Assembly (NCBI GenBank): GCA_026702755.1
Contig: JAPPBX010000094.1
Coordinates: forward strand, 1-35,133
Direction of reading: 5' to 3'
DNA: 35,133 nucleotides
From: Candidatus Poribacteria bacterium
GTDB lineage: Bacteria; Poribacteria; WGA-4E; WGA-3G
Shown: positions 7,655-35,133 of the stretch, piece after piece
Layout: the number at the start of each line of letters is the position of its first letter
How positions within the stretch are numbered: the stretch's first letter is position 1
Translations under genes and position numbers: made by a program
The notes under the pieces: model-generated
What the model saw: only the letters and a program-made list of their open reading frames with translations
Told to the model about the DNA's origin: nothing
Databases searched by the model: none

Positions 7655-7745
7655 TAGTTACGGGTTATCGGTTTTTGGTTAAGATTTATGGCATCAGAGT
7701 CCTCTTTAACTCATAACTGGTAACTCGCAACTGATAGCCGGTAAA
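7655..7745. repeat. TTAA-centred palindromic repeat (copy 1)
   Basis: The left arm runs AGTTACGGGTTATCGG and ends in GGTTAAGA; the right arm begins TCTTTAACTCATAACTGG and ends CAACTGATAGCCGG. Each arm is a degenerate series of short CAGTTGTCGGTTATCGG-like units with a TTAA at the inner edge. Relatives are at 11419, 12165, 19038 and 34120. Confidence 0.65.
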
Positions 7746-10400: not shown

Positions 10401-11381
10401 GTGAAAGCTATTGTTAGAACAGGCGATGGCGGACCAGAAGTCTTACAATTGGGCGACGCACCGTCACCAGAACCAACAGAAACCCAAGTCTTGGTGGATG
10501 TTCATGCCACCGCTTTAAATCGAGCCGATATGATTCAACGACGAGGCGGATATCCGCCGCCACCGGGTGAATCTGAGATACTGGGTTTAGAAATCGCTGG
10601 CACCGTTGCAAGGATGGGCAGTGCCGTGAAGGGGATGGCTGAAGGCAACCGCGTTTTCGGGCTCGTCGGTGGTGGCGGTTACGCCGAGCAAGCCGTCATT
10701 GATTACCGCATGGCGATGCCGATTCCTGACGACTGGACTTTTGAACAAGCCGCCGCGGTGCCTGAAGTATTCTTTACTGCCAACGAAAATATCTTTACTT
10801 TAGGCAAATTGTCGGCTGGTGAAACAATTTTGATCCATGCAGGTGGTAGTGGTGTTGGCAGTGCCGGAGTCCAAATCTCGCATCATGCTGGTGCGACTGT
10901 CTTTGTCACTGCAGGAACATCCGAGAAAATAGATAATTGCAAGGCACTCGGTGCAGCAGAGGGTATTAACTATAAAGAAAAGGACTTCGTTCCTGAAATT
11001 GGACGTTTGACAGATGAACGAGGCGTAGATGTGGTTTTAGACTTTATCGGAGCTCCCTATTTTGAGCGGAACCTCTCTATACTTAAAACAAAGGGTAGAC
11101 TCTTGCAAGTCGGGTTAATCGGTGGCACAACCACAGAAATTAACCTTAGCACAGTGATGCGCAATCGTCTCCAAATTATAGGTTCGGTTATGCGTCCACA
11201 ATCCATTGATGAAAAGATCGCTATCACACAGCGTTTTATGGAGCGGTGGTTACCTGAGTTAACGCGCGGTACGCTTCAGCCGGTTATCGACACTGTTTTC
11301 CCATTAGCACAAGCACAGCAGGCACATGAATATATGGAAGCCAATCTCAACTTTGGTAAAATTTTGTTGAAGGTGAGGTAG
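10401..11381 (+). CDS. NAD(P)H quinone oxidoreductase, PIG3 family
   Basis: A medium-chain, zinc-independent reductase that would pass electrons from NADPH to quinones or similar carbonyl acceptors in the cytoplasm. The N-terminal GroES-like part starts MKAIVRTGDGGPEVLQLGD and holds ALNRADMIQRRGGYPPPPG, the typical PIG3/QorA pattern. The Rossmann part has the nucleotide loop HAGGSGVGSAGVQ near residue 150, followed by GATVFVTAGTSEKIDNCKALGA. The end (LAQAQQAHEYMEANLNFGKI) is also characteristic. At 326 residues it is full length. The start is GTG with an AGGGT ribosome site. It appears to be a single-gene unit. High confidence in family; the physiological substrate cannot be read. Confidence 0.92.
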   Translation: MKAIVRTGDGGPEVLQLGDAPSPEPTETQVLVDVHATALNRADMIQRRGGYPPPPGESEILGLEIAGTVARMGSAVKGMAEGNRVFGLVGGGGYAEQAVIDYRMAMPIPDDWTFEQAAAVPEVFFTANENIFTLGKLSAGETILIHAGGSGVGSAGVQISHHAGATVFVTAGTSEKIDNCKALGAAEGINYKEKDFVPEIGRLTDERGVDVVLDFIGAPYFERNLSILKTKGRLLQVGLIGGTTTEINLSTVMRNRLQIIGSVMRPQSIDEKIAITQRFMERWLPELTRGTLQPVIDTVFPLAQAQQAHEYMEANLNFGKILLKVR

Positions 11382-11418
11382 AAAAAAATGAAGGAGCTGC
11401 ACCTTACAAAACACTAAT

Positions 11419-11495
11419 AGTTATCAGTTGTCGGTTAAGAGGGCGATTTGATACAACCAAGTTTCTCTTTAACTGAAAACCGAAGGCTGAAGACT
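11419..11495. repeat. TTAA-centred palindromic repeat (copy 2)
   Basis: The left arm AGTTATCAGTTGTCGG-TTAAGAG (11419-11441) and the right arm CTCTTTAACTGAAAACCG (from 11465) face each other around a spacer of about 23 bases. It fills most of the gap before the large C25 peptidase gene and leaves room only for its ribosome site. Confidence 0.7.
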
Positions 11496-11547
11496 CTTAA
11501 CAAGGCAATTAATTATTTTTAAAAGAGACAGGAGCAAACACAAACCG

Positions 11548-14500
11548 GTGCGTATCCGATTCAGGCTTGGTATTACACTAAGCATTCAAATTCTCATCTT
11601 TTTAGTATGTATAAGCAGTGCTTCCGCTGAGATTACCCAAGTTACATCAACCGATGGAATTACTCTTCAGCTCACCCTACCGGAACTGGTTACATCCGAT
11701 ATCGTTCGAGACAATGTCCGTTATCAAGAGGTGCGTTACGCTGACTGTAATTTCACCAATGAGCCGGGGAATCCCAAAGTTCCAGTCACACGCGTCATGC
11801 TGGGTATACCTGCGACAGCTACGATTGAGGCAGTTAATGTTTCTGCTGCACCTGTGGAGACACGCAGCAATGTGCGTCTCAGCCCTGTCTCAATTTTCGA
11901 CATCGATGAACGTGATTCACAGCACTCAGCATCGCAGCGTTGGGTGGAAAGTGGAAGCGTGTATCGGTCGAAAGGGAGCGCCTCTTTTCGGGCGAATTCT
12001 TCGTATCCCGGACACCCCCTTGCCCGAGTTGTCCGAGAGGGTTATATCCGCAGTCAACGCGTCATCGCTTTGACATTGTACCCTGTCCAATATATCCCAA
12101 GTGCCCGCCGTTTGCAGGTCTATTCACGCCTCACCGTGAACATCCGTTTTTCTTACGGCAAGAATAGCCGTCAGCCGTCAGCCGTCAGTCGTCAGCAAGA
12201 AAACGTTCATTTACCAGAAACCTCTTTACTGACTGCTGATAGCCGAAAGCCGATAGCCATTCCCGCCGAATCTGAAGCGTTTGAGCGTGCATTTTCACAT
12301 CAACTCCTTAATGCCGAACAAGCCGCTCGTTTCCGCGCCCCCCGACCCCTAATACCTGCAGCACCGACACTCGTTCCGAACGGCGGGAGTGAAACACGCT
12401 ATAAGATATCTGTCGAGGAGACAGGAGTCTACGCCGTAACGGCGGCATCGCTACAACGCGACTGGGGGATAGAACTCATCGGGATTGACCCTGCGAGGCT
12501 TCGACTCACGCAGGGAAACAGAGATATTCCAGTTTACATCAGTGGCGCGGCGGATGGCAGTTTTGACGCAACGGATGCTATCTTTTTCCTTGGGCATAAA
12601 CCCGGAAATCGATATAGTCGTTGGAATATCTATTGGCTCACAGTGGATAATAGTGGACGTATTCCGGCTCGGATACCGCAAGTTACCGCCAATCCCACGG
12701 ACCAGACAGCAACACAAGTGCCTACCTTCCGCTCTAAGGTGACTTTTGAGGAGGATTACCTAACGAGTAACCTTGAATTTGTCCATACTGAGACTGTTTC
12801 ACCCGGCGATAAACACGGTTGGTTTGACGCACTGGACTTCTGGTACTGGGACGGTATCAAAAATGGCGGTGATTCTGCCGAGATGCGTCTTGAGTTTCCG
12901 CTTTACGATGTCGCGAAAAGTTTCGATCCGCCACGCATTTCCGTTGACTTGCAGGGTGGGACACCGGTATCACATGAAATTTTGGTTTCTATTAACGGGG
13001 TCCGAATCCAATTCGCTAAATGGGAACAGCAGGATACGCTCACTGTTGAACGCACCTTGCGTACTTGGGATACACTCAAGGACGACAGGAACGGCGAACA
13101 GAACGTCCTATCCTTCGCTCGCGTTGATGATAATGTTGACGATGATACCACCCGATATCCGTATCATGTCTATCTCAATCGTTTTTATGTCGAGTATACC
13201 CGTCTTTTCCGTGCGGTTGCAAATGAGTTGTGGTTCATATCGCCGGAACCGGAAACTGATTCTCGAACCCGTCTCCCCGGTGCGCGTAAACTTCAGTACA
13301 AAGTTGAGGCGTTCCGTGATCCGAGCGTACATATCTTTGAGACGGATGGAATACATCTTACAGCCCGGATGCAAGGCGTTCACATAGAGTCAAATACAAC
13401 ACATACGGGTTCGTATAACGCGCTTTTTCAGGTGCTTGATACTCGAAGGACGCAATTTATTGCTGTTTCCAGCACTGCTCTGCGTCAACCGACACGCGTT
13501 GATATCGTCGCACCTACGGACTTAGCGACTGCGGTACACGGTGCTGATTATCTGATTGTGACACACTCCAATTTCTTGTCTGCCGCACAGAGATTAGCGG
13601 CGTGGCGCGCAACGCCTGGCGGTGGAGGATACCGCACAAAGGTCGTCACAACTGACGATATTTACAATACGTTTGGCGATGGGAGTGTCAGTCCGAAAGC
13701 ACTTAAAGCGTTTCTAAAGCACGCCTATCAATCTTGGGCACCGCCAGCACTGACTTATGTTGTCCTCTTTGGCGATGGCACCTTCGATTTTCGCGGTGTG
13801 GACACCGAAATCTATTCCGAGGCACCCGAACTTATTGGATATATCCCAACGCATTATATCCGAACCGACTCTTTTGGTCGTACCGCTGCTGACCACTGGT
13901 ACGCGACCGTCTCGGGACACGATGAATTCACCGATTTCTATATTGGTAGACTCAGCGTCGAAAACCTTAACCAAGCCGATGCGATTGTTGATAAGATTGT
14001 GGCTTATGAGCAGGCACCACCCAATGGAGACTGGCGGAGAAGGATTATCTCTGTCGCTGACGACGAGGTCAGCAACTCTGGCGATTTTATCTTCAAGAAA
14101 AGTCTTGATGAAATTGCGAAAGATCACACCCGCTTAGGCTATGAAACCGTTGAGGTTTTCCTTGAAGATGTTATTGATCAGGTTGAGGCACACCCAGCGG
14201 ATTATCCAGACCTCTTGCCACAACGCGTTGCAAAAGATAGGATCATTGAAGCACTTGGAGAGGGCGCCGTGCTCGCGCAATATGCTGGACATGGCGGGAG
14301 AATCGTCTGGGCACACGAAGCAATCTTTGATAACGCCTCTGTTGATCAGGTTGAAGAAACCGCCAAGATTCCTTTCATGTTAGTTCTCAGTTGTTATAAT
14401 GGCTATTTTGATAAACCCGGTGAACCCAGTATGGCAGAGAAGTTACTGCGGAAAGAGCGGGGTGGTATCATCGGTATGTTGAGCGCGACGCGTCTTACTT

Positions 14501-17500
14501 ATGGCAGAGGAAACGATGCCCTCAACCGAATCATCTTTGACATGCTTTTTAAACGCAACATCCGACAACTGGGTCCCTTGAGTTTTGATTCAAAAGTTGA
14601 ACTGCTGATGACAGAGGGTACGAGTCAGATTGATGTCATGATGGAATATACGCTTTTTGGTGATCCTGCCCTACAGATTGCTATTGCCAACGGTGAAATT
14701 CGGCCCACTATTGAGACGAAAACAGTCGCGCCGGGTGATACTCTCCGAGTCGCAGCAGGGCATATTCAAACGGCTACTTACGATGCGGCAACCCGCACAA
14801 AACGCTTTACGACAGACTCTGCTTTTAATGGGACACTCACCGTTAAAGCCCTGTTCCCCGGGAAAACAGCGATTGCCCAAGGTGTTGCGGGCCCCGTCAG
14901 ATACTACACTGGAGACGTGGTTCTGACAAAGACGCTAACTGTAAACCGAGGTGCTTATCCTGCAGTGACTTTCACTGTCCCACGGAACATTGCGAGCGGT
15001 GATGCTCACGTCGAATACTATGCGCAAAGCGACGCGACTGTCGCTGTCGGTGGTGATGGATTTACCGTCAACATCCCAAAAATTCTTAACATTCAACCTG
15101 AAGTGGTCAGTGAGGGCAAGTTTCGTATCTCTATCCAGATTTCCGATGAAAAAGAGGAACTGGCACAAGTGCTCTTGGATTGGCGTAATCCACAGAGTCG
15201 CGAATGGGAGAAGGTATCTCTCGTCCCCGCAGCCCCACCCTTGGCAAAGGATGGATGGTGGACGGTGCCTGAGCCGTTAAACGCCCCTACAGACGGTTCT
15301 GCCATCCGATATGACTTTAAGGTAACGGATATAGATGGGAATACGGTTGAAACTGGAAGACTCCAGTATTATCCTTATGTATACCCCAATCTTTTGGTTG
15401 TGGAGGCTGAGAGAGAGAGTAGGATTAGTTACGGCTATAACACCCAAACGAAACAGTGGTACCTCTCGGCGGATGTGCAGGTAGAAGGTGGTGATGGTGA
15501 TATACAAACGCCCATTGAAGTGGCATTTTTTAGTGGTAATCCGGATGTTGACAATGATACGCTTGTTGATGACGATGTTGACCTGCTTGGGACTGCCCGG
15601 ATTCAACCCAAAGACTGGATACAACGCAACCCGTTAGTGAACTCCGAAAGCGCGAAGAAACACCCCAGCAAAAACACTACAGGAAAAAGTGTTTATGAAC
15701 CGGATCCTTTGAATACACTGCCGATCGCGACTGCTACTTTAAATCTGAAGAATCAATTGCCCTCCGGCACGCACGACATATTTGTCTATATCGATGTGAC
15801 AAATACTGAAACGGATCAACCGGGCAAAGTACTCGAAAATGACGAGGAAGACAATATCGCTTACCGACGGCTTTCTGTTGACATGGGGGTGATCGGAAAA
15901 GAGGCTTCCTCAAGCCAAATTGTTAGTTTGGATCGAAACTGCCTTGTTACTGCACCTCCTGGAGCACTTCAAGGAACAACAGTATTGGCTATTCGTCCCT
16001 TGGACGAACAGGGATTTATCAATGTAGGGACTGGATTATCTATCCCCTACGCGAAAACCTCTGCCAAAAGCCCCCTTGCGGGGATGTCCAAGCGCGCACC
16101 GTTCCCTGGCGTTTCCGTTCACGGCTATGAACTCGTTGTTGACGCACAAACAGAATCTGAAATTAAACTAACCTCTCCAGTGGCGATTGACTTGAGCTTC
16201 GACCTCCGTACCCTTAGTGCTCAGCTCGCGCAAGAACTGCTGGGAGGTGTTGACTCTGAAGTGGTACCCTTGGGAGAAGGAACTGATAGATTAGGTGTTG
16301 CGGACACGATTAACACTGCTGTCGTATCCCATGCCCGTGAATTAGGCATCTATATGTTTAGTCCAACACTCGGAAATTGGACAAGACTTCCCTCTCAGCA
16401 ACTCGCTGATGCCACGGGCACGTTACAGCAACGCATGCATGTGACAAATATAAGTGAAAAGAATATTGGGCAAAGCGAACTTCGCGAGGTAGATATCCAA
16501 CCTGAAGGGACACGGACCGGCAAGTATGTGCTCTTTTTCACGGGTCCGCAAACGTATCGGCTTTTCCTTGCCCCTTCGGCGGAGGGTCCACAGGCACTTG
16601 ATCCGTTGGAAGTTATCGCACCAATGGAACAACTCGCTAACTTCAGCACAAACTTCCGAAACTTTAGGCATGGATTCACCCTGAACGTGGAACTTGATTT
16701 TGACCTACCCTTCACTTTTGGTGATGTCTTAACGTTCAATATAACCTCCCTTGTGCAACCTGCTACGGATGTCGAAGCCGACATCGGCACACCGCAGCAA
16801 GAACTCCGTTGGTACGCATCTGGATTTAGAGATAGGAACCAAGGCACGGGAACCCTCAGTTACGTTGAACTACCACCAGATACTACTATGCCTGAAGATC
16901 GATGGGTCATCTTTTTCCTTAATAGCACTGAGTTTCAGGTTGAGGGTGAAAGAACCGGTGTTTTACGTTCCCAAGCCGATGGAAATCCATTCCGAGGAAC
17001 AGTTGGAAAGTTGTTTTCATATCAACCTTACGGTTTACGTTTTCAAATCACACATGGTGATCGTCCCTTTGCTCCCGGTGACAGATTTCGATTTGAAACT
17101 CGACCCGTTGGGACCATTCGGGCAACGACAGATCGCCTGGGACCGATTACGCTGTTGCATACTGACGATACCGTTCCACCGGATATGCAGTTGACTATCG
17201 GTAACCAGCAACATTTCGTTCCCGGAGATGCCACAGATGCAGAACCCCTCATCGGAGCAACATTAACCGACCCAAGTGGACTTGATTACCTCACCCGACC
17301 GCTGTTGTTGGAAATTGGGAGTGCATTCGGGGAGTATGAACGTATTGACCCAGAAGCGTATCAGGTGACACATCACCCCGGCTCGAATCAACTCGTGTTG
17401 ACATATCCGTCTCCAGAACTTGAACCGCGGGAATATGAGGTCCGACTCACCGCGAGTGATGTCCATGGAAACACCGATACAAAACGCATCACATTTCGGG

Positions 17501-17805
17501 TTCACGATACCTTGCAGCTGCTCTCGTTTCTCAACTATCCAAATCCGTTTCCGCGTAAAACAACGCTCACCTGCGAATTGACCGCGCCTGCTGATTCGCT
17601 CGCTGTGAAAATCTATACGCTGAGCGGACGACTCATCCGCGAACTCTCGGTTCCAGCAACTCCGGGATTTCTTATGGTGGAGTGGGATGGTAGAGACGCT
17701 GATGGCGTTGAGGTTGCAAATGGCGTTTACTACGCAAAACTCCGAGTTAAGCGTGAAGGCGAAAAAGACATAACTGAAATACTCAAAATGATGAAACTCC
17801 GTTGA
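11548..17805 (+). CDS. porU: Gingipain-family (C25) peptidase, PorU-like, with FlgD-like sorting domain
   Basis: This 2085-residue exported protein begins with a signal peptide (likely cut after ASA, residue 27). A propeptide-type beta region follows, then a C25 caspase-like domain at about residues 667-1020. The predicted catalytic His915 is in YAGHGG and Cys949 is in LSCYNGYFD. Then come beta domains including a CARDB-like module (about 1280-1446). The last 90 residues (NYPNPFPRKTTL, LSGRLIREL, DGVEVANGVYYAKLR) match the FlgD-like type A sorting domain of type IX secretion cargo. PorU is the surface sortase of that system, and the next gene is its partner-type PorV barrel, which supports the PorU reading. 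A secreted gingipain-like protease is the alternative. Start GTG has GGAG 13 bases upstream. A repeat is embedded in frame at 12165-12258. Confidence 0.85.
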   Translation: MRIRFRLGITLSIQILIFLVCISSASAEITQVTSTDGITLQLTLPELVTSDIVRDNVRYQEVRYADCNFTNEPGNPKVPVTRVMLGIPATATIEAVNVSAAPVETRSNVRLSPVSIFDIDERDSQHSASQRWVESGSVYRSKGSASFRANSSYPGHPLARVVREGYIRSQRVIALTLYPVQYIPSARRLQVYSRLTVNIRFSYGKNSRQPSAVSRQQENVHLPETSLLTADSRKPIAIPAESEAFERAFSHQLLNAEQAARFRAPRPLIPAAPTLVPNGGSETRYKISVEETGVYAVTAASLQRDWGIELIGIDPARLRLTQGNRDIPVYISGAADGSFDATDAIFFLGHKPGNRYSRWNIYWLTVDNSGRIPARIPQVTANPTDQTATQVPTFRSKVTFEEDYLTSNLEFVHTETVSPGDKHGWFDALDFWYWDGIKNGGDSAEMRLEFPLYDVAKSFDPPRISVDLQGGTPVSHEILVSINGVRIQFAKWEQQDTLTVERTLRTWDTLKDDRNGEQNVLSFARVDDNVDDDTTRYPYHVYLNRFYVEYTRLFRAVANELWFISPEPETDSRTRLPGARKLQYKVEAFRDPSVHIFETDGIHLTARMQGVHIESNTTHTGSYNALFQVLDTRRTQFIAVSSTALRQPTRVDIVAPTDLATAVHGADYLIVTHSNFLSAAQRLAAWRATPGGGGYRTKVVTTDDIYNTFGDGSVSPKALKAFLKHAYQSWAPPALTYVVLFGDGTFDFRGVDTEIYSEAPELIGYIPTHYIRTDSFGRTAADHWYATVSGHDEFTDFYIGRLSVENLNQADAIVDKIVAYEQAPPNGDWRRRIISVADDEVSNSGDFIFKKSLDEIAKDHTRLGYETVEVFLEDVIDQVEAHPADYPDLLPQRVAKDRIIEALGEGAVLAQYAGHGGRIVWAHEAIFDNASVDQVEETAKIPFMLVLSCYNGYFDKPGEPSMAEKLLRKERGGIIGMLSATRLTYGRGNDALNRIIFDMLFKRNIRQLGPLSFDSKVELLMTEGTSQIDVMMEYTLFGDPALQIAIANGEIRPTIETKTVAPGDTLRVAAGHIQTATYDAATRTKRFTTDSAFNGTLTVKALFPGKTAIAQGVAGPVRYYTGDVVLTKTLTVNRGAYPAVTFTVPRNIASGDAHVEYYAQSDATVAVGGDGFTVNIPKILNIQPEVVSEGKFRISIQISDEKEELAQVLLDWRNPQSREWEKVSLVPAAPPLAKDGWWTVPEPLNAPTDGSAIRYDFKVTDIDGNTVETGRLQYYPYVYPNLLVVEAERESRISYGYNTQTKQWYLSADVQVEGGDGDIQTPIEVAFFSGNPDVDNDTLVDDDVDLLGTARIQPKDWIQRNPLVNSESAKKHPSKNTTGKSVYEPDPLNTLPIATATLNLKNQLPSGTHDIFVYIDVTNTETDQPGKVLENDEEDNIAYRRLSVDMGVIGKEASSSQIVSLDRNCLVTAPPGALQGTTVLAIRPLDEQGFINVGTGLSIPYAKTSAKSPLAGMSKRAPFPGVSVHGYELVVDAQTESEIKLTSPVAIDLSFDLRTLSAQLAQELLGGVDSEVVPLGEGTDRLGVADTINTAVVSHARELGIYMFSPTLGNWTRLPSQQLADATGTLQQRMHVTNISEKNIGQSELREVDIQPEGTRTGKYVLFFTGPQTYRLFLAPSAEGPQALDPLEVIAPMEQLANFSTNFRNFRHGFTLNVELDFDLPFTFGDVLTFNITSLVQPATDVEADIGTPQQELRWYASGFRDRNQGTGTLSYVELPPDTTMPEDRWVIFFLNSTEFQVEGERTGVLRSQADGNPFRGTVGKLFSYQPYGLRFQITHGDRPFAPGDRFRFETRPVGTIRATTDRLGPITLLHTDDTVPPDMQLTIGNQQHFVPGDATDAEPLIGATLTDPSGLDYLTRPLLLEIGSAFGEYERIDPEAYQVTHHPGSNQLVLTYPSPELEPREYEVRLTASDVHGNTDTKRITFRVHDTLQLLSFLNYPNPFPRKTTLTCELTAPADSLAVKIYTLSGRLIRELSVPATPGFLMVEWDGRDADGVEVANGVYYAKLRVKREGEKDITEILKMMKLR
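12165..12258. repeat. TTAA-family palindromic repeat read in frame inside the PorU-like gene (copy 3)
   Basis: The left arm is an almost tandem AGCCGTC series (TAGCCGTCAGCCGTCAGCC onward, 12165-12199). The right arm is TTTACTGACTGCTGATAGCC onward (12224-12258). The right arm shares ACTGACTGCTGAT with the intergenic copy at 34120-34236. Translated, it gives about 31 low-complexity residues (about 206-237: NSRQPSAVSRQQ through TADSRKPIAI) between propeptide strands, with no frameshift. Confidence 0.75.
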
Positions 17806-17881: not shown

Positions 17882-19039
17882 ATGAAACATAAATCAAAGT
17901 TTAAAAGTGTGCTGAAGTCCATAAAATGTGCTAAAGTTATTCAAAATCCTTTCCCTCACTTCGGGACTTTAGCACACTTTAGAGACACTTGCAAACTTTT
18001 TGTCGTATCTATAATTGCGTTCTGTGTGGTGATTATTCCATCTGTTGATGCGAGATACACTGCCGATTTCCTAACACTTGGGGTTGGAGCGCGTGCACTT
18101 GGTATGGGCGGGGCAGGCACTGCTTTAAGCGATAATGCTTACGCACCGTATTGGAATCCTGCTGGGTTGGGACAACTCACCCGATATGAAGTCAGTTTCA
18201 TGCATTCTACACTCAATGAAGCCGATGCTTACGATTTTGTCAGTTATGTCCATCCACTCAAAAAGCGAGGCGCGATTGGTGTAAGTTGGCTCCGTGTCGG
18301 TGTTGACGACATTCCTATTACCAGCTTACCGGTCGTCAGTCGTCCTGTCGGGCCCGCGAACCGTCCAGAGGTCGTCGGCTCCTTTAACAATACCGACAAC
18401 GCTTTTCTTTTTGCTTCTGGTTGGAGGCTTCCATCCCGTTACGGTATTGATTTACATCTTGGTGGCACACTCAAACTCCTCTATATGAGTGGATATCGAA
18501 GTACGAACGCTATCGGTGGCGGTGCAAATATCGGTTTCATTGGGATGACAAACCCTGAAAAACCACATCAACTGATGCTTGGATTGCAGGTGAGCGATGT
18601 CTTTACGACGAAGCTCTACTGGAACACACCGCCACCATCGGCGGATCTTACATCGCACACTGAAACGATACTACCACACCTCAAAATCGGTATCGCCACG
18701 GTACATACACTCCCTATTTTCCGAAGTATGCTCATCCTTGCCTTGGATACCTACATCCAAAATCGGATTGGTCTGGAGATTGAACCTGACGTTGAGAAAT
18801 CGGAGGGGAGTCCTGTTGAGTTGCATGCGGGTGCTGAATGGACACTCTTTGATCTACTTTCTTTACGGATTGGACTCTCGGAACGGAGTGGGAGTCTTGA
18901 GAGTGTTCGCCAATTGACAGCGGGGGTTGGGTTGAATCTCCGATTCGTCACGGGTGCCGGGGCAGGATTAGACTATGCGTTCGCGAACCATCCAGCATTG
19001 GGCGGCAGTCATCGTATATCTCTCAGAATTAGATTTTAG
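17882..19039 (+). CDS. porV: PorV/PorQ-family outer-membrane barrel protein
   Basis: After a signal segment (hydrophobic residues 38-54, likely cut after SVDA at 57) the mature start reads TADFLTLGVGARALGMGGAG and then APYWNPAGLG. This is the PorV/PorQ family hallmark. The remainder alternates beta strands and ends in RISLRIRF with a terminal Phe, the usual outer-membrane insertion signal. PorV is the FadL-like barrel that binds type IX secretion cargo and delivers it to PorU; the preceding gene is a PorU-like peptidase. Odd: residues about 5-40 are encoded by a palindromic repeat, which makes the signal peptide unusually long, and no in-frame start codon downstream would give a shorter one with a charged N-region. 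There is no clear Shine-Dalgarno. The family is well supported; PorQ-like or another paralogue is possible. Confidence 0.83.
   Translation: MKHKSKFKSVLKSIKCAKVIQNPFPHFGTLAHFRDTCKLFVVSIIAFCVVIIPSVDARYTADFLTLGVGARALGMGGAGTALSDNAYAPYWNPAGLGQLTRYEVSFMHSTLNEADAYDFVSYVHPLKKRGAIGVSWLRVGVDDIPITSLPVVSRPVGPANRPEVVGSFNNTDNAFLFASGWRLPSRYGIDLHLGGTLKLLYMSGYRSTNAIGGGANIGFIGMTNPEKPHQLMLGLQVSDVFTTKLYWNTPPPSADLTSHTETILPHLKIGIATVHTLPIFRSMLILALDTYIQNRIGLEIEPDVEKSEGSPVELHAGAEWTLFDLLSLRIGLSERSGSLESVRQLTAGVGLNLRFVTGAGAGLDYAFANHPALGGSHRISLRIRF
17896..18000. repeat. Inverted repeat forming the start of the PorV-like gene (AAAGTGTGCTAAAGT family, copy 2)
   Basis: AAAGTGTGCTGAAGTCC (17904-17920) pairs with GGACTTTAGCACACTTT (17964-17980) with one mismatch. 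A third short unit, TGTGCTAAAGTT, lies between at 17926-17937. The flanks AAAGTTT and GCAAACTTTT resemble the ends of the copy at 7393-7494. The element is read through in frame. Confidence 0.75.
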
Positions 19040-19075
19040 TAGTTGTCGGTTATCGGTTATCAGTTGTCAGTTAAT
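19038..19075. repeat. Half copy of the TTAA-family repeat at a convergent junction (copy 4)
   Basis: AGTAGTTGTCGGTTATCGG, then TTATCAGTTGTCAGTTAAT. It overlaps the stop codon of the PorV-like gene and the last codons plus stop of the WD40 gene on the other strand, and fills the whole 20-base gap between them. Confidence 0.7.
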
Positions 19076-33684: not shown

Positions 33685-34119
33685 ATGCTACGGAAAAACA
33701 TCAACGAAAACGGTGGGATGACTTGGCTTCAGCTGCTTATCCTTATTGTCATAGTAGTCGTGATTGGTGTACTCACTTTTCCACCTTGGTTGGAATATCG
33801 TAAAGTGGGTACGGCGGATGTAGATGTGGAAACGATTGCCGTTGCTATCAAGAAATACCACAGGCACACGGGCGAGTATCCAACACGTTTAAACGCGCTG
33901 ATAGCGGATCCGGGCGTTGAGGGATGGCGTGGCAGTTATCTGGAGTCTATCCCTGAGACACCCTGGGGCGGGAACTATGTCCTTCACCAGGACACCTATA
34001 AAGTAGGGATTGCGGAAAGTCACCCGCGCGTTCCCGAAAAATATCGAATCGGTGGTGTTGCAGAAATTAGCAGAGTCTACCATGCCGACGCGCACCTCGG
34101 TGAGAAGTATTGGTGGTAA
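33685..34119 (+). CDS. GspG-like pseudopilin lacking Glu5
   Basis: This 144-residue protein has a short leader, then GGMTWLQLLILIVIVVVIGVL, a prepilin-type segment with likely cleavage between Gly11 and Met12 by prepilin peptidase. The globular part (VAIKKYHRHTGEYPTRLNAL, then SYLESIPETPWGGNYVL) matches the major pseudopilin GspG of type II secretion (YPT.. and PWG.PY). Position +5 of the mature protein is Gln16 rather than the nearly invariant Glu, as is known in some minor pseudopilins. The matching processing enzyme is encoded 165 bases downstream. It may form part of a type II secretion or pilus-like machine whose other genes lie elsewhere. No strong ribosome site is seen. Confidence 0.82.
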   Translation: MLRKNINENGGMTWLQLLILIVIVVVIGVLTFPPWLEYRKVGTADVDVETIAVAIKKYHRHTGEYPTRLNALIADPGVEGWRGSYLESIPETPWGGNYVLHQDTYKVGIAESHPRVPEKYRIGGVAEISRVYHADAHLGEKYWW

Positions 34120-34236
34120 TTAGTTGTCGGCTATCGGCTTTCAGCCGTCGGCTGTCAGTTAAAAGATACGCTGTGGTAGGTATAACAAAGGCAACTGCCA
34201 CAAGAAGTTAACTGACTGCTGATTGCTGATGGCTAA
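34120..34236. repeat. TTAA-centred palindromic repeat (copy 5)
   Basis: The left arm runs TTAGTTGTCGGCTATCGG on to GTCAGTTAAAAG (34120-34165). The right arm is AAGTTAACTGACTGCTGATT on to GATGGCTAA (34205-34236). A spacer of about 39 bases separates the arms. It fills most of the 165-base gap between the pseudopilin and the prepilin peptidase. It is the clearest intergenic copy of the family. Confidence 0.75.
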
Positions 34237-34284
34237 TTTGTAGAAAACATTGCTGACAACTGGAGACTAACAACGATAAAAAAT

Positions 34285-35076
34285 ATGTGGGTGTTTATTT
34301 TTTTCTTCGGTTTAGCAATTGGCAGTTTTCTCAATGTCTGTATCTATCGTATTCCACGCGCGGATATCTCAATCCACTCACCACGTCGTTCCTTTTGCCC
34401 TGAATGTGGTAATCCCATAAACGTTTACGACAATATTCCTGTTTTGAGTTATCTGCTTTTGCGGGGAAAATGTCGGCAGTGTCGCGCAAAAATTTCAGTG
34501 CTATACCCGTTGGTTGAACTTGCAACGGCAGGGCTGTTCCTTGGGATGTACTATCGTTTCGGGTTGACCCTCGAATTTCTGCTCGCGCTCGTTTTCGTTG
34601 CGGTCCTGGTACCAATTTTCGTAATTGATGCCCAGTTCTATATTATTCCGACTGTTCTTGTCTGGACAGGACTAATTCTCTGTTTAGGTATTGTCGGCAC
34701 AATCGCGTATCAACGCGCTGATATTTGGTACCTGCTCACGCGGATCATTGGTGCCGTTGCTGGTCGTATAGTATTTTGGTTGATTGCTGTAATTGGAAGA
34801 AAAATCTATCGCAAGACAGCAATGGGTGGTGGCGACGTTGAACTGATGACTCTCAACGGATTGGTCCTCGGTGCATGGCCCGAACTGGCGATGGTGATAG
34901 GCTTTTCTTCTCTGAGTGGTGCAATTATTGGTAGCGTGCTTATTGTTTTTAAAAAGAAGAAAGGTCTTCAAAGTGAGATCCCTTATGGTCCTTTCCTCAT
35001 TGGTGCTGCTGTGCTTGTGCTTTTATGGGGAGATGGGCTTTGGCATCAGTACTTGCAGTTTGTTGGGTGGAATTAA
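34285..35076 (+). CDS. pilD: Prepilin peptidase (type IV prepilin leader peptidase/methyltransferase)
   Basis: This inner-membrane aspartic protease removes prepilin leaders and methylates the new N-terminus. The sequence starts with a membrane segment and GSFLNVCIYRIP, followed by the cytoplasmic zinc-type cysteines CPEC (38, 41) and CRQC (63, 66), with the NIPVLSYLLLRGKC motif. The catalytic aspartates are expected at Asp115 (FVIDAQ) and Asp184 (MGGGDVEL). The usual GxGDxKL here reads GGGDVEL, and the lPd after the first Asp reads IPT, both mild departures. It is 263 residues with several hydrophobic stretches, as in the family. The pseudopilin upstream is its likely substrate. The gene ends two bases before the terminal repeat. 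The symbol could equally be gspO. Confidence 0.93.
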   Translation: MWVFIFFFGLAIGSFLNVCIYRIPRADISIHSPRRSFCPECGNPINVYDNIPVLSYLLLRGKCRQCRAKISVLYPLVELATAGLFLGMYYRFGLTLEFLLALVFVAVLVPIFVIDAQFYIIPTVLVWTGLILCLGIVGTIAYQRADIWYLLTRIIGAVAGRIVFWLIAVIGRKIYRKTAMGGGDVELMTLNGLVLGAWPELAMVIGFSSLSGAIIGSVLIVFKKKKGLQSEIPYGPFLIGAAVLVLLWGDGLWHQYLQFVGWN

Positions 35077-35078
35077 TT

Positions 35079-35133
35079 GAGGGTGTTTCATAAATCATTA
35101 ATATTCTATCGAAAGACAGTTTTAATGTGTGTG
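35079..35133. repeat. Right copy of the 55-base terminal inverted repeat
   Basis: Exact reverse complement of 1-55; identity stops at 35078. It follows the prepilin peptidase stop by two bases. See the left copy. Confidence 0.9.

Follow-up and report, generated by a model that had tools for sequence, protein, structure and literature searches.

The best-known cases of palindromic repeats translated in frame are those of Rickettsia and Wolbachia, which are intracellular bacteria with small genomes. The Rickettsia palindromic elements (Ogata et al. 2000, as described in PMC2229807 and PMC10969869) are palindromes of ~100–150 bp found both between genes and in frame within conserved genes, where they occupy solvent-exposed insertion places (PMC2229807, PMC10969869), and different types occur at one site in related species, at hot-spots (PMC3767692). 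In-frame fusions are also made by bacterial MITEs, namely ERIC, the 107-bp Correia element and YPAL (PMC2229807). Repeats of the heptamer TAACTGA have been described from Beggiatoaceae, Cyanobacteria and Bacteroidetes (MacGregor 2015, PMC4679880); one direction is open and reads LSVISYQ, the other carries stops, and the repeats are mainly direct, lying just upstream of starts and peripherally if in ORFs, with one inverted case in BOGUAY (PMC4679880). Poribacteria are not mentioned in that study, and we found no earlier description of Poribacteria palindromic or inverted repeats in the open-access literature.

Here we describe a heptad-armed palindrome that is read in frame within a PorU-like protease gene of a Candidatus Poribacteria sponge symbiont. 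Judging from the sequence comparisons below, we put at roughly 0.85 the probability that this stretch is a copy of a non-autonomous, MITE-like palindromic element, which would have multiplied within one Poribacteria genus and been kept in linkers.

A palindromic repeat within a PorU-like gene

The window, that is, the whole stretch of 35,133 nucleotides that was analysed, is one contig (C94) of a 5.84-Mb genome (G000); all assemblies compared are MAGs, and translation is predicted here from the genes. Its forward strand carries, at 11548..17805, a gene for a PorU-like C25 peptidase of 2085 residues, in which Pfam recognises Propeptide_C25 (residues 48–205), Peptidase_C25 (668–1043) and a C-terminal FlgD_ig domain (2005–2067), a domain set that makes the label 'PorU-like' fair. 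The gene has a match in 60 of the 60 related genomes searched, and the best matches are free of internal stops.

Directly behind the propeptide domain, positions 12165–12258 of this ORF code for residues 206–237 (NSRQPSAVSRQQENVHLPETSLLTADSRKPIA) and comprise a left arm, AGCCGTCAGCCGTCAGCCGTCAGTCGTC, and a right arm, ACTGACTGCTGATAGCCGAAAGCCGATAGCC. The initial annotation had read this segment as a member of an intergenic repeat family that encodes about 31 residues of the protease, and both parts of that reading held. With its outer GAAT...ATTC pairing the whole palindrome, delimited by its fold and by two arm-model matches (12162–12210 and 12214–12262), spans 12162..12262 on the forward strand (residues 205/206–238), and one strand by itself folds into a long hairpin (fold z −5.14). 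On the same strand, the left arm (12166..12196; heptad run score 35.0) is made of three AGCCGTC heptads, AGTCGTC and AGC, and is followed by the loop AAGAAAACGTTCATTTACCAGAAA (12197..12220) and by the right core with the start of the right arm, CCTCTTTACTGACTGCTGA (12221..12239), an exact 19-nt match to the family core motif. The outer heptads of the right arm (12228..12258) have CCGA instead of CTGA, which leaves the PorU copy without an in-frame stop.

In the family at large, heptad arms (consensus AGYYRWC, with AGTTATC common among the heptads) face each other, and between them lie the core TTAAAGAGG...CCTCTTTAACTGA and a loop that varies. The elements are ~60–180 bp long and lie mostly between genes, non-coding copies having a median length of 102 bp (range 58–221). 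A profile search of the whole G000 genome confirmed that copies are many: the core-plus-arm motif matches 184 times, exactly so in the PorU copy, and once in the reversed control; for three-heptad arms the counts are 191 and 12. Random-sequence controls gave no equal similarity, since AGCCGTCAGCCGTC (≤3 mismatches) matches the window 14 times against 2.03 expected, a count never reached in 100 shuffles, and ACTGACTGCTGATAGCC matches it 3 times against 0.05 expected. An arm HMM trained on 47 non-coding pairs, all outside the window, detected the right arm of the PorU element at E 6.7e-9 and the left arm at E 1.6e-6, and on the reversed genome it returned 0 matches at 1e-6 and one at 1e-4. Shuffles, reversed controls and arm HMM together rule out chance similarity as the source of the PorU repeat. 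Rfam gave zero matches up to E 1 in 11300–12600.

Per genome, the heptad family has 11 to 317 matches in this genus and 0 to 18 in sister genera, and it is near-absent elsewhere in the phylum. The reversed-control pattern is also unusually frequent in one genome, G009 (57 and 29 matches), which hints at another repeat family there. The window itself begins and ends with a 61-nt inverted repeat (1–61 and 35073–35133; 98%), probably an assembly-graph end and not biology.

The arms do match intergenic copies, as had been proposed; the copy named as closest, at 34120–34236, gave way to one between two genes on another contig (G000:C15:31012–31101), which is 90% identical over 90 nt of arms and loop and has a near-identical loop. 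Among the further copies listed in the initial annotation, two proved to be full and non-coding: one is a complete hairpin at 34114..34237 (arm matches E 2.9e-6 to 0.002; fold z −4.86), and the other, given as 11419, lies just upstream of the PorU-like gene at 11414..11500 (arms E 5.9e-4 and 7.8e-4; fold z −3.31). That at 19038 is a single arm, or half element, on the reverse strand (19037..19074; E 1.4e-6), and that at 7655 is a weak, probably decayed copy with one arm (7656..7744; E 0.03).

Filled and empty sites in PorU and other genes

At the place of residues 206–237, related PorU proteins have no such peptide or a different one; where relatives carry similar peptides, these also stand on heptad-repeat DNA, and the same peptide on unrelated DNA was not seen. 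Of 36 congeners, 20 have a linker of the heptad type and 16 a non-heptad one; the other genera tested have none of the heptad type, and linker length is hypervariable (17–52 residues). Mapped on the flank tree, built from protein sequence, linker type changes at least 7 times, which is fewer than under random placement (mean 12.6), yet far from a single change. Sister pairs (L035/L041, L047/L049, L036/L039 and L021/L022) have flanks that are mostly 86–100% identical and linkers that are 43–52% identical, and in discordant sisters the flanks on either side keep ~90% identity as far as the linker. In two non-sister genomes (L051 in G006, L055 in G019) the linker is filled by a different heptad-like stretch, reading SSLETGNW.

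As PorU linkers vary everywhere, the cleanest proof of insertion comes from other genes of the same survey, with in-frame copies also present in COX15/CtaA, TPR, ASPIC/VCBS and tRNA-synthetase-like proteins. Residues 175–211 of the COX15/CtaA-family protein are the element, and most congeners, 86–93% identical before the site, are without these ~35 residues, their flanks being joined by a few residues. In G000, G001, G007 and G009 the TPR protein has the element after its signal peptide; the site is empty in the next relative (G017) and in most congeners. The ASPIC/VCBS protein is without insert in other genera (LLFQNDG-F) and has many different inserts in this genus. A copy also precedes the anticodon-binding domain of the tRNA-synthetase-like protein; the site is variable in all congeners, hence there is no clean empty site, and this case hints only faintly at insertion. 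That the repeat is a source of new peptide segments, as first suggested, is literally so, at ~25–50 residues in at least five proteins; such a phenomenon was known before from the Rickettsia palindromic elements.

Apparent coding copies at the N-terminal end of ORFs (C36:41634 and others like it) did not count as proof, because translation could plausibly begin at a later start codon, and we excluded C11:14681, C1:152402 and C87:13373, in which the ORF was short or the arm calls overlapped, as doubtful cases or noise. Another small palindrome, GTAGGGGCGAGG...CCTCGYCC, occurs in frame as well, in CtaA-like genes (L163, L165–L167, L169, L173) and in ASPIC genes (L220–L223, L227), where it sits within the heptad element itself, and a third, TTTTGACCAACAACTCG...CGAGTTGTTGGTCAA, lies inside heptad elements at L217 (ASPIC, G001) and G000:C15:24211–24353. 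The ASPIC insert of G009 (L229) has grown into several tandem units, a long array (SRQSAVGSQED), so that inserts can also expand by tandem duplication.

The strongest competing explanation, to which we give about one chance in four, is that whole alleles have passed by homologous recombination among co-resident Poribacteria after a few ancient insertions. Such exchange would account for the insertion points and right junctions that the distant species G000 and G009 have in common in their CtaA-like and TPR genes, and for the IPAESEAFERA shared by G000 and G020 in PorU. However, the ~90% identical flanks of discordant sisters would confine an exchanged tract to little more than the linker, and no PorU linker is as near to the PorU copy as a non-coding copy in the same genome. 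At the sites common to G000 and G009, either the same site would have been struck twice or a short tract exchanged. Returning to insertion of a multiplying element, it is an even bet that heptad elements insert repeatedly at the same permissive linkers in conserved proteins, with fast turnover among sisters and with several unrelated small palindromes nesting there, the linkers acting as continuing landing pads where new peptide segments arrive.

Probable mobility and translation of the copies

The copies are short and dispersed, with inverted-repeat ends and no transposase coding capacity, as MITEs are. Their ends are palindromic (AAT...ATT); the compared filled and empty sites are without a clear target-site duplication, and no excision was found. 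No transposase ORF lies between arm pairs in the 821 kb of G000 surveyed for paired copies, where arm-flanked ORFs are housekeeping genes; the surveyed contigs were chosen partly for heptad matches, and densities are therefore biased upward.

A RAYT could in principle have mobilised the elements as REPINs, given their paired inverted arms that form a hairpin and the presence in G000 of four genes that score above cut-off as Y1 transposases, but we consider this unlikely. Heptad arms are absent within about 1.5 kb of the five Y1 loci; the arms are tandem heptads, not a single short REP; and two Y1 genes adjoin a different repeat, CCCCGTAGGGG. These two RAYT-like genes (L153 and L154, on G000:C21) stand beside CCCCGTAGGGG-type repeats that may be a REP family of their own and resemble GTAGGGGCG palindromes.

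On the favoured reading, a MITE-like element spread within the genus, copies would be moved in trans by a separate enzyme and land anywhere, and most coding insertions would then be removed. Paired copies inside ORFs number 6 of 59 at threshold 17 (a few more if it is looser), against ~88% coding sequence, a rarity which implies that most coding insertions are presumably lost. The survivors would keep the frame and lie in loops, in linkers or immediately after a signal peptide, with the TGA of the right arm now CGA. Their peptide is probably neutral filler, and the element would afterwards decay, disappear or give way to another copy, so that the site keeps changing between sisters.

How a copy may be translated follows from its arms. 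None of the three forward frames has a stop in the left arm, which reads SRQPSAV in rotation in the PorU copy; because seven is not divisible by three, every frame yields the same seven-residue cycle, which makes in-frame capture easier. The right arm, being the reverse complement with normally one TGA per heptad, has stops in every frame, and 35 of 53 non-coding copies have zero open frames of six. In the sense right arm, TGA and CGA stand at 5:14 among coding copies and at 219:95 among non-coding arms (p 2e-4); the left arm shows no such shift. Read from these counts, the contrast shows how copies would escape stops, though it is partly circular because being in an ORF requires the absence of an in-frame stop. 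From a translated insert, tryptic peptides such as QPSAVSR and QQENVHLPETSLLTADSR would be expected.

AlphaFold2 (32 orthologues) predicted a beta domain before the insert and a helix after it, with protein residues 206–236 (construct 187–217) at pLDDT <50 and devoid of secondary structure, and the borders of this segment match those of the element. The simplest reading of the model is a disordered, flexible tether from the propeptide to the next domain, without sign of function. Selection for the inserted peptide itself, say as a tether, variable or accessible to proteases, that joins the propeptide to the mature enzyme, would suit its place directly behind the propeptide domain (residues 48–205) and the repeated replacement at the same point of PorU; we hold it to be quite improbable, for the same peptides occur in unrelated intracellular and membrane proteins, 16 of 36 congeners do with non-heptad PorU linkers, and conservation of the insert beyond the constraint of the DNA repeat was not seen. 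Least probable is that heptanucleotide replication slippage grew a low-complexity PorU linker whose intergenic likeness is convergence: heptads are slippage-prone, the linker does range from 17 to 52 residues and heptad number does vary, up to the long array of the G009 ASPIC gene, but the PorU copy is a full palindrome that also has a non-heptad core (the exact 19-nt motif) and a loop (within the 90% match over 90 nt), and unrelated genes have the same heptad-armed unit and empty sites, so that the common core and loop largely refute slippage as the origin, while arm length may still slip after insertion.

Comparison with described systems

Set against small palindromic units of other bacteria, the Poribacteria element resembles ERIC, Correia and YPAL in making in-frame fusions, but these have other sequences and possess defined TIRs, several of them with target-site duplications as well, of which no clear counterpart was seen at the compared Poribacteria sites. 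Like REPIN/RAYT systems (PMC3116915), it is an inverted pair that forms a hairpin, mostly intergenic and non-autonomous; unlike them, it has no RAYT adjoining the repeats, and its arms are heptad arrays. With the TAACTGA repeats it shares the heptamer itself, since reverse-complementing TAACTGA gives TCAGTTA, of which AGTTATC is a rotated form, and also the way it codes, open when read one way and stop-bearing when read the other, whereas the Poribacteria heptads form inverted hairpin arms that are dispersed between genes, with some in gene interiors.

The likeness to the Rickettsia palindromic elements lies in the long stem-loop (z −5.1, −4.9 and −3.3 for three Poribacteria copies) and in the in-frame presence in several unrelated genes whose outside orthologues are without the insert, at exposed positions and with the type at one site differing between related species. 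The two differ in host, which is Poribacteria and not Rickettsiales, with the comparison made by description and not by sequence; in the arms, which are tandem heptads in Poribacteria; and in coding logic, as the Poribacteria element has stops in one arm that are relieved in coding copies, while the Rickettsia elements have a conserved open frame. By analogy, we suggest that the Poribacteria element works like the Rickettsia palindromic elements, and we do not file it as one of them. The same in-frame behaviour is now seen in the large (4–7 Mb) genomes of a distant sponge-symbiont phylum, where the capture of repeats into proteins and the turnover of linkers can be tested by comparative genomics, given over 35 species of the genus, sites both filled and empty, and a plain rule on which copies are translatable.
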